The position numbers and the translations under genes are program-made. A stretch of 32,723 nucleotides of DNA from a virus, in IMG/VR virus record IMGVR_UViG_3300005532_000246, positions 1 to 32,723 of that record; one strand, 5' to 3'. The notes beneath the pieces were generated by a model. That model saw only the letters and a list, made by a program, of their open reading frames with translations, was not told the origin of the DNA and made no database searches. Every line of letters starts with the position of its first letter. Positions within the stretch are counted from its first letter, which is position 1. Shown one piece after another: positions 11,147 through 25,888 of the stretch.

Positions 11147-12055
11147 CTACCCCACCGGGTCGCCCTGCCGGTCGACCTCCTCAACCACCCGCAACTCGCG
11201 CGCCTTCACCTTGTCGTCGATCACAACCAGATCGGTGAGGCGGGCCTTGACCAGCACGTAGCGCGTCGCGCCGCTGTTGTACGTCGCCGCCATCGCAGGA
11301 CTCGGCGACGCGTGCAGGCCACCACCGCAGACCGGATCCGGGTTGAAGTCGGGAGCCTTCTGCTTCGTGCCGGGTGTGTAGAAGATCCCGGCGGCTCGCG
11401 CCTTCGGCGTTGACAGGTCGTCGTCGACTGCCTTGTAGAGCGTCGCGAAGCCGCGCCGCACCTCGACGCCGTGATACTCGCACCACTCGGCCGGCGACAT
11501 GTCAAGGACATCGGGTACGTCGATGACTACGCCGCCCTTGACCGTCCCGCTGTGTCCGGGCGTCCGGTGTAGCGCGGCGTACTTCGACGCCTCGGCGTGC
11601 GAGTAGCCCCAGAGCACGGCGTGCGAGGAGCCCCTGAGCACGGCGTGCGAGGAGTCCCTGAGCACGGCGTGCGAGGAGCCCGAGAGCTCGGCGTGCGAGG
11701 AGTCCCTGAGCGCGGCGTGCGAGGAGCCCCAGAGCACGGCGTGCGAGTAGCCCCAGAGCACGGCGTGCGAGTAGCCCCAGAGCACGGCGTGCGAGGAGTC
11801 CCAGAGCTCGGCGTGCGAGTAGCCCCAGAGCACGGCGTGCGAGGAGTCCCTGAGCACGGCGTGCGAGGAGTCCCTGAGCTCGGCGTGCGAGGAGTCCCTG
11901 AGCACGGCGTGCGAGGAGCCCCTGAGCACGATGTCTTGCGCGTTGCGCACTACCAACGGCGCAGTGCGTGTGCCGCCGAGTACGACGATCGGTTCGTTGG
12001 GGGGGCGCTTCTTTAGGGCCGCGTCGAGTTCGGCCTGTGTCTTGACCTCAATCAC
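11147..12055 (-). CDS. octapeptide-repeat protein with conserved C-terminal domain
   Basis: Protein of 302 residues. A short N-terminal region (1-46, TQAELDAALKKRPPNEPIVV) leads into 13 exact-length octapeptide repeats (47-150) of the form SSHAVLRD / YSHAVLWG. Position 3 is always His and position 6 nearly always Leu, as expected of a stacked beta-helix solenoid. The C-terminal domain (about 175-302) contains FATLYKAVDDD and VCGGGLHASPSP, which resembles a domain seen in many actinophage accessory proteins. Function is unknown; a DNA-mimic or adaptor role for the solenoid is speculation. The GTG at 12055 overlaps the zinc-finger gene stop and uses AAAGGAGA as ribosome site. Repeat number is likely to vary between strains. 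Confidence 0.8.
   Translation of the reverse strand: MIEVKTQAELDAALKKRPPNEPIVVLGGTRTAPLVVRNAQDIVLRGSSHAVLRDSSHAELRDSSHAVLRDSSHAVLWGYSHAELWDSSHAVLWGYSHAVLWGYSHAVLWGSSHAALRDSSHAELSGSSHAVLRDSSHAVLRGSSHAVLWGYSHAEASKYAALHRTPGHSGTVKGGVVIDVPDVLDMSPAEWCEYHGVEVRRGFATLYKAVDDDLSTPKARAAGIFYTPGTKQKAPDFNPDPVCGGGLHASPSPAMAATYNSGATRYVLVKARLTDLVVIDDKVKARELRVVEEVDRQGDPVG
11606..11917 (-). repeat. 24-bp tandem repeat, 13 units
   Basis: Thirteen in-frame 24-bp units encode the octapeptide solenoid. Units differ mostly as whole blocks: RD versus WG at the end and S versus Y at the start, suggesting shuffling by slippage or recombination. As the period is a multiple of three, the opposite strand is also open throughout, giving a spurious repetitive frame. 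Confidence 0.9.
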
Positions 12056-23960: not shown

Positions 23961-24550
23961 TTGGCTGTCACCGCACTGACGGGGCAGGTCGACACGAACA
24001 CGATCCTTGTCGACGAGAAGATTGTCGACATGGACGACGTGGTGGGGATGCTCGACCCCCAGACGTCGCAGTTCACGACCATGCTCATGAAGATCGCCGA
24101 GAAGAAGGCGAGGAACCAGAAGGTCGAGTGGCTCGAAGATCAGCTGTTTCCCCGTCTCGCCACCGTCGCGACGGGTGGCTACACGAATGTCGCCACCGCG
24201 ATCCCGGTGACGGCGGGCCAGGGCCAGTACTTCCGGGCCGGCTCGTTCGTTCGCAACGCCCGCACGGGTGAGGGCTTCGTCGTCACTTCGGTGTCGACGG
24301 ACACCCTGAACGTGACGCGCGGTATCGGGGCCGTCGCGGCTGCCGCCGGTAACGCCGGCGACCAGCTGCTCATCGTCGGGAACGCGTCGATGCAGGGCGC
24401 GGGGCTCGGGACGATGAAGGTCGCGAAGCGCGTGATGAACTACAACTACGAGCAGATCCAGCGCGATCCGTACGGGTTCACGAACACCCTGATCGCCACC
24501 GACCTGTACACCGGTGGGGAGCCGGACTACGAGCGCAAGAAGAAGCTGAT
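23961..24550 (+). CDS. major capsid protein, exon 1
   Basis: Encodes the first 196 residues plus two bases of the next codon. Start is TTG 23961 with AAAGGAG upstream. The sequence KVEWLEDQLFPR near residue 54 and the overall length fit the SU10/DUF5309 group of HK97-fold capsid proteins. Joined to exon 2 (25318-25888), the protein is 386 residues. The exons meet inside an Ile codon, giving RKKKLI then EHKRAIEYGLFWG, a continuous helix as in related coat proteins. Without splicing, translation continues for ten intron-coded residues to the TAA at 24582-24584, giving a truncated 207-residue product. Family call is moderately sure; capsid identity rests also on following the scaffold gene. Confidence 0.87.
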
Positions 24551-25317
24551 TGATTCGGTCAGCTTCGTCCGGTGCGCTCTCTAAACTAAACCGGACACAA
24601 ATACCCGTCTATTTTGCGGGAACACCCTTAGAGCCACGCCCCCTCACTAGGAACAGACGGCGTGGATTGGGCGATCCGCAGGAGAAGGAACGATGACATA
24701 TTCGCTGGAGTTCATTGGCGGACTCGTTTGCGGAGAGGGATGTTTTTCTCTCTCGGTCAACAAGCTTCGCCAGTCCAGGGGCGCGGGATGGCTTCGCGTC
24801 ACACCGGTCTTTTCGATGACCATGTGTGATCTCGAAGTGATGAACGGGGTCGCCGACTCGTTTCGAGAGTACGGCCTCCCTGTTTACGTTCGAGATGTCT
24901 TCTCGCCAAGTCGACTAGGAAACCGACCGGCCCTTCGGATTCACGTGAACGGGCAGGCCCGTCTTCTGAAAATCACAGAGGCGCTCCTGCCGCACCTGTA
25001 CGGAGACAAGAAGAAAGCGGCCCAGGCGGTTCACGACTTCTGTCTTCACAGATTGACGCGCGTTGGGGAGTTCAACCCCAAGCATCCAAAGCGCCTTGGG
25101 TACAGGGGGATCGACGACTTCGACATTGACTGCATCGAAAGATGCCGCGATGCGAATAGGTCGAACCGCGAACATGTCCACTCGATAGCCGACCTCAGAG
25201 ACTACAAGATGGGACGCGCCAAGAGGGCGCGGAAGATATAGTCCGACCTCCGATCGAAAGACGGAGAGCCAGGCAGAAATGACCTGGCCCGCCCCGAACA
25301 GGGCGAGTAACAACCTG
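24551..25317 (+). other. group I intron in the capsid gene
   Basis: A 767-base intron. P1: GAAGCTGAT (24542-24550, exon end) pairs fully with GTCAGCTTC (24558-24566), with the diagnostic U-G at the splice site. P10: TTCG (24554-24557) pairs with exon 2 CGAG. P2: GTCCGGT (24567-24573) with ACCGGAC (24590-24596). A core GCGGGAACACCC precedes the stem CCACGCC/GGCGTGG (24634-24640, 24659-24665). GAAGATATAGTCC (25232-25244) matches the conserved 3' P7 strand of phage group I introns. Three hairpins follow (25248-25266, 25269-25287, 25290-25305). The last intron base is G25317. P3, P7 5' strand and P8 were not resolved. Confidence 0.9.
24693..25241 (+). CDS. LAGLIDADG homing endonuclease (intron-encoded)
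   Basis: Protein of 182 residues. FIGGLVCGEGCFSLSV (residues 7-22) is the LAGLIDADG helix and first strand of single-motif enzymes, which act as homodimers; the Glu in CGEG is the metal-binding acid. A later TEALLPHLYGDKKKAAQAVH is also typical. It would cut intron-less capsid genes and so spread the intron. AGGAGAAGG lies before ATG 24693. Its stop codon is formed by the TAG of the intron P7 strand (AGATATAG), so the gene ends within the ribozyme core. Codon use is less GC-biased than in neighbouring genes, consistent with later arrival. Confidence 0.92.
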   Translation: MTYSLEFIGGLVCGEGCFSLSVNKLRQSRGAGWLRVTPVFSMTMCDLEVMNGVADSFREYGLPVYVRDVFSPSRLGNRPALRIHVNGQARLLKITEALLPHLYGDKKKAAQAVHDFCLHRLTRVGEFNPKHPKRLGYRGIDDFDIDCIERCRDANRSNREHVHSIADLRDYKMGRAKRARKI

Positions 25318-25888
25318 CGAGCACAAGCGCGCGATCGAGTACGGCCTCTTCTGGGGCGCCCGCTACCTCGACACGTCGGGTACGAACCCGGTCGGGTACT
25401 CGGGCGGCGTCGTCGAGTTCCTGGCGACGAACATCCACAACGTCGGTGGGGCGCTGACGAAGTCGGCGCTCGACACGTACCTCCAGACGGACCTCCAGCA
25501 CGGCTCGGAGAACAAGGTCCTCTTCTGCTCGCCGACCGCGGCGACGGAGATGTCGGGCTTCCTCCGCGACAACTGGGTTCGTGTGGACGCGAAGACGCGG
25601 CTGTGGGGCGCGAAGGTCGACGCCCTGATCTCGGGCGCCTACGGCTTCCAGATCCCCGTCATCGTGAAGCGCGACTGGAACGACTTCAGCACCGCCAACA
25701 CGCAGTACGGCGGCTGGATGTTCCTGATCGACATGGACTACGTCAAGTTCCGGCCGCTGCGGACGACCCGTCTGCTCCGCAACCGGCAGAACAACGACGT
25801 GGACGGCTACGACGAGGAGTACCTGACCGAGTACTGCCTCGAGCTTCAGCAGGAGCCGGTCCACGCGCTGTACCAGGGCATCCAGTAG
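25318..25888 (+). CDS. major capsid protein, exon 2
   Basis: Encodes residues 197-386 of the capsid protein, starting with the last base of the split Ile codon and EHKRAIEYGLFWGARYL. It contains the C-terminal half of the HK97-like fold (FCSPTAATEMSGFLRD, KVDALISGAYGFQIPVIV) and the conserved end MFLIDMDYVKFRPLRTTRLL. It has no start signal of its own. Stop TAG 25886-25888 is followed by a hairpin terminator. Confidence 0.88.

Follow-up and report, generated by a model that had tools for sequence, protein, structure and literature searches.

The window analysed here, to which all coordinates refer, is the whole 32,723-base virus record IMGVR_UViG_3300005532_000246 of IMG/VR. Its late genes match those of phage SU10 (SU10_portal (Pfam, E 7e-31), SU10_MCP and SU10_adaptor, together with a terminase), and a DnaB helicase and a DNA methylase are encoded in its left part; a tRNA search found none and an NCBIfam search gave no match. 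The SU10-type major capsid gene lies in two exons, separated by a group I intron that carries an endonuclease gene of its own (Table 1). Read on from exon 1 without splicing, the capsid frame that opens at TTG 23961 comprises 207 codons before the stop at 24582-24584; with 24550 joined to 25318 it specifies a 386-residue capsid protein, interrupted at codon 197. These are the lengths of the unspliced and fused products that an earlier note on this DNA had given, and translation confirms them. Elsewhere in the window, a 302-aa open reading frame on the minus strand (11147-12055) contains many octapeptide-like repeats (SSHAVLRD, SSHAELRD, YSHAVLWG and others), possibly those of a beta-helix-like fibre or binding protein.

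Table 1. Features of the interrupted capsid gene, its intron and the intron-borne gene
Feature	Coordinates	Strand	Evidence
Capsid exon 1, SU10-type major capsid protein, TTG start	23961..24550	+	Pfam SU10_MCP, E 8.7e-13
P1, exon 24542-24550 with intron 24558-24566, 9 bp, U24550-G24558 at the 5' splice site	24542..24566	+	sequence; MFE fold
Group I intron, 767 nt	24551..25317	+	homologue comparison; covariance model
P10 strand UUCG, pairs with 3' exon CGAG 25318-25321; 4 bp, one G-U	24554..24557	+	sequence
P2, 24567-24573 with 24590-24596	24567..24596	+	MFE fold
In-frame TAA ending the unspliced capsid frame, in the P2 loop, upstream of P3	24582..24584	+	reading frame
P3 5' strand CCCGUCU, pairs with AGAUGGG 25207-25213	24604..24610	+	complementary strands swapped for other complementary strands in relatives
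P4, 24615-24619 with 24676-24680	within 24615..24680	+	MFE fold; P4 motif in relatives
P5, 24625-24627 with 24669-24671	within 24615..24680	+	MFE fold
P5 extension, 24634-24640 with 24659-24665	within 24615..24680	+	MFE fold
LAGLIDADG homing endonuclease gene (HEG), 182 aa, in the P6 region	24693..25241	+	profile against I-MsoI/I-CreI/I-CvuI; predicted fold like I-CreI
P7, 25200-25204 (GACUA) with 25239-25243 (UAGUC)	25200..25243	+	covariance model; compensatory changes in relatives
P8, 25215-25220 with 25226-25231	25215..25231	+	covariance model; fold
P9, 25248-25252 with 25262-25266	25248..25266	+	covariance model; fold
P9.1 (GCCAGGCAGAAAUGACCUGGC), hallmark common to BAKA, LittleE and IMG/VR introns	25268..25288	+	sequence comparison
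P9.2, 25290-25294 with 25301-25305	25290..25305	+	fold
Terminal G of the intron	25317	+	sequence
Capsid exon 2	25318..25888	+	SU10_MCP match in 3' part, E 6.4e-7; contiguous with exon 1 in 30 homologues

The intron borders are fixed by comparison with intron-free capsid genes, a check that the earlier note had proposed along with a covariance-model search. The 386-aa joined capsid retrieves 30 loci from IMG/VR, at 29-63% identity, and in every one of them the capsid gene is a single contiguous frame across the joint, which there reads AAGAAGCTGAT(C/T)GAGCA(C/T)AAG or a close variant. The window reads AAGAAGCTGAT followed directly by CGAGCACAAG when 24550 is joined to 25318, so that exact removal of the intron restores the gene as it stands in the 30 homologues; the empty capsid site is AAGAAGCTGATCGAGCACAAG, and an exact empty site occurs in 23 contigs. 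Four adjacent joints restore the same peptide, KKKLIEHKR; the joint is set at 24550/25318 because it alone leaves U as the end of the exon and G as the end of the intron. The frame-restoring joint claimed in the earlier note is thus borne out, as are the 9-bp P1 with its U24550-G24558 pair, the 4-bp P10 and the terminal G25317, all of which can be read in the sequence.

P1 and P10 by themselves could arise by chance: a P1-type hairpin is found at 12 of the 5064 T positions of the window. The 5' half of the intron has a folding z-score of -3.9 that beats all shuffles, with P2, P4, P5 and the P5 extension present in the minimum-energy fold, and the 3' half, in which P7, P8, P9, P9.1 and P9.2 are formed, has a z-score of -4.1 that likewise beats all shuffles. 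P3, which spans ~600 nt, is made up of other strands, again complementary, in most of the relatives examined (CUUGGC/GCCGAG, AUCGCG/CGCGAU, CCUCGG/CCGAGG and others). The 30 intron-free homologues, these z-scores and the blind covariance-model match that is described below place the whole far beyond chance.

Rfam at its gathering threshold does not match the window intron, and a permissive search with RF00028 gives 21 bits against a cut-off of 50, which is a database convention rather than a defining trait of group I introns; the 5' half was misaligned in that search because of the insert in P6. The minor tail gene intron of BAKA/Optimus, for which splicing has been shown by RT-PCR (PMC3706429), also scores just 28.6 bits with RF00028, so that this cut-off does not discriminate within the lineage, for which the general model appears weak. 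A second model (R1) was built on the P7-P3'-P8-P7'-P9 domain of 25 related introns in viral contigs, with the window left out. Those contigs were found by two short intron motifs, one derived solely from the window, the other shared with BAKA, and window-like 3' cores are therefore to be expected in them; the covariation is independent of the way in which they were found. R1 matches the window at one place, 25194-25268 (59.4 bits, E 5e-13), and also matches the splicing-proven introns of LittleE and BAKA at ~34 bits; it finds no match in eleven intron-free capsid loci and none in the ten whole records behind capsid relatives. In the R1 alignment of 25 sequences 95.2% of cells are paired and both sides vary in 13 of the 16 pairs; none of 500 shuffles is as good, and sliding the partners destroys the signal. 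P7, normally near-invariant, takes the compensatory forms GAACA/UGUUC and GAUCA/UGAUC in two introns of the family (L067 and L056). A stringent search with a 5'-core DNA pattern returned no matches, and a blastn search of phage records with the window stretch matched the 3' core alone in Mycobacterium phages, with one further hit in an Alicyclobacillus phage. The core of the window intron combines the R1 match over the P7 guanosine-site helix and P8, the long-range P3 and the P4-P5 fold. Sequence and covariance model support the earlier note in taking the element for a group I intron in a capsid gene, with exact borders, and presumably a self-splicing one.

The earlier note overlooked the endonuclease gene in the P6 region. 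Its protein begins MTYSLEFIGGLVCGEGCFSLS, and AGGAG lies at the usual distance upstream of its ATG. On its own the sequence gives 13.7 bits with Pfam LAGLIDADG_1 (below the cut-off of 23.1), matches to PDB meganucleases near E 0.01 and a match to phrog_5046 at E 2e-6; as a profile with five relatives it matches I-MsoI along its length at E 1.6e-9, and I-CvuI and I-CreI as well. These relatives were reached only by way of the intron motifs and a two-row alignment; tblastn against phage records, and scans of IMG/VR and of genome contigs with one sequence, found none. The structure was predicted from the six-row alignment, which raised the pLDDT from the 49 of a poor single-sequence model to 70; confident mainly over residues 1-124, it resembles I-CreI-type enzymes (Foldseek: E ~3e-7, probability 1.00). 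The motif reads FIGGLVCGEG, and E15, before its last glycine, is invariant in the window protein and its relatives (six sequences); the acid at this position is catalytic in I-CreI. Motif, profile and fold concur in the LAGLIDADG class. The HNH label that phrog_5046 would confer was rejected, there being no Pfam HNH match while profile and fold searches return LAGLIDADG enzymes; phrog_5046 and phrog_12980 are both entered as "HNH endonuclease" in PHROGs, and the members found here are LAGLIDADG proteins by profile and fold. The third-position GC of the endonuclease gene is 0.68, against 0.94 for the capsid gene, which is consistent with a foreign origin, a newcomer. Its last 13 codons coincide with P7, P3', P8 and J8/7, and its TAG stop, 25239-25241, starts the 3' strand of P7. 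In another contig (L206, 781-1758 and 1917-2480) a gene for a relative of the enzyme lies directly behind an SU10-type capsid gene, with no detectable intron core; a free-standing stage, or collaborative homing, is a possible account of that arrangement.

These facts very probably describe a group I intron that splices itself and moves by means of a LAGLIDADG homing endonuclease, and that interrupts codon 197 of an SU10-type capsid gene. Shown for this reading are the exon borders set against homologues, the core pairings with their covariation, the family and fold of the enzyme and the many intron-free target alleles, and it is the endonuclease gene that presumably makes the intron mobile. 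Counting against it are the scores below cut-off with RF00028 and with Pfam LAGLIDADG_1 and the HNH label of the family in PHROGs. An alternative, unlikely but the most substantial of those considered, is that the intron splices and no longer homes, its endonuclease being inactive or mismatched to its target and the element vertically inherited. Two observations lean that way: the window protein has Cys (VCGEG) in place of the first acid of the motif, and no second virus with the same intron at the same site was found among the capsid relatives in IMG/VR or in the ten whole records behind them. Against it, the open reading frame is full length and preceded by its AGGAG, E15, the catalytic acid, is retained together with the I-CreI fold, and target alleles free of the intron are plentiful; moreover, I-DmoI-type enzymes also lack the first acid. 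That the capsid gene is broken, by an inert insertion or by an error of assembly, so that the record represents a dead phage or a chimera, might be suspected where there is a single metagenomic record, but is highly improbable: the two exons stay in frame across a U/G joint that is unique, and every helix of the core is intact and covaries with relatives, as would not be expected of a random insertion. Least probable of all is the production of both parts without RNA splicing: an open frame from ATG 25550 would allow a second protein, but this first listed start in the exon 2 frame lies deep inside the capsid sequence and every homologue is a single chain, and an intein is impossible because the interrupting frame ends at 24584 and the endonuclease frame starts anew at 24693.

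For the mobile intron, the working of the parts can be proposed from their sequences and from what is general to their families. P1 would present the U-G 5' splice site, guanosine bound in P7 would attack after U24550, and the 3' end of exon 1 so released would be held in line by P10 and attack after G25317; in infected cells these two guanosine-initiated transesterifications would join U24550 to C25318 and so yield the 386-residue capsid protein. The efficiency of splicing might, as the earlier note proposed, set the capsid dose. On unspliced RNA, ribosomes would meet the stop codon of the P2 loop and terminate ahead of P3, which would keep them off the core; the introns of T4 offer a precedent for this. 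The endonuclease, if it follows the habit of its family, would cut the conserved site in capsid alleles that lack the intron, and repair would then copy the intron in. Because the last 13 codons and the stop of its gene are written on the ribozyme core, translation of the enzyme should be incompatible with splicing of the capsid message on any one RNA.

The earlier note had held a capsid gene to be an unusual place for a phage intron, and this does not stand. Splicing of the capsid intron of the mycobacteriophage LittleE (gp13/gp14) has been shown by RT-PCR and N-terminal sequencing, in a paper that also refers to a capsid intron of the lactococcal phage Tuc2009 (PMC3706429); among crAss-like phages, the Delta and Zeta groups have group I introns in their MCP genes, recognised by endonuclease domains, and the Delta group typically has introns in the MCP and other core genes (PMC7886860). 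The relatives found of the window intron also lie mostly in major head protein genes. The LittleE intron resembles that of the window in being of group I type, in the major capsid gene, with a LAGLIDADG gene and the same P7-P9.1 core (R1 34.2 bits); it differs in its HK97-like capsid gene, in its site, in a longer P7-P8 region and in an endonuclease gene on the opposite strand whose product is not detectably close to that of the window (24.5% identity, E 0.6). The BAKA intron shares 79% of its P7'-P9.1 sequence with the window over 63 nt, but is 265 nt long, lies in a tail gene and lacks an endonuclease gene. The closest endonuclease found, at 28% and on the same strand, belongs to an intron in a phrog_9953 major head gene (L173/L203, IMG/VR 3300009177_000151); there too the 3' end of the endonuclease gene runs into a closely similar core (67.3 bits, for a sequence that was in R1), whereas the capsid family and site are others and the endonuclease stop is a TGA just before J8/7. 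Introns with a closely similar 3' core do occur in SU10_MCP genes, as in the window (L123/L137, L141/L163 and L162), but at a different insertion site: the 3' exon of L162 starts at SU10_MCP position 44, whereas the exon 1 match of the window runs to ~114. The crAss-like introns have the major capsid gene in common with the window and belong to different phages. The spliced LittleE intron with its LAGLIDADG gene and the crAss-like MCP introns make this a kind already known; the window example is distinct from the known ones in capsid family, site and orientation of the enzyme gene.

A survey of relatives extends the comparison. Sixty-seven motif-found IMG/VR introns with a readable downstream frame of at least 50 aa were clustered and 20 representatives compared with PHROGs; 37 of the 67 belong to clusters represented by a major head protein, a count that close relatives inflate, in a survey that is blind to the host gene but not to the intron lineage. 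The head-protein families are ten (phrog_1357, 1328, 10, 247, 2263, 752, 29, 267, 9953 and 212); the other hosts are tape measure (6), BAKA-type minor tail (3) and terminase (1) genes, and a few of the remaining, unassigned frames are endonucleases, not exons. Introns that carry LAGLIDADG relatives (L203, L204 and L208) adjoin major head genes too. A preference of this intron family for capsid genes would accordingly be a lead rather than a proven fact, and a better lead than the single capsid intron offers. We consider it tentatively, at somewhat short of an even chance, that a widespread phage lineage, marked by the P9.1 hallmark CAGGCAGAAAUGACCUG, has specialised on capsid genes of many unrelated families at many sites, and that a phrog_5046-like LAGLIDADG subfamily travels with part of it. 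Two observations stand beside the survey. Lysinibacillus phage LysYB1 (OP628075) has a group I core (L179, 1944-2043; R1 25.9 bits) immediately after the CDS annotated as major capsid protein and ahead of a feature that bears no other annotation than "similar to HNH nuclease"; the capsid gene of that phage may be split and misannotated. Six contigs (L074, L143, L064, L053, L034 and L067) each hold several intron cores within a few hundred to ~2000 bases, which suggests genes with several introns in a row. For the SU10-type capsid genes the window adds a well-bounded and testable intron, and it illustrates how easily intron-split capsid genes are misannotated as truncated.
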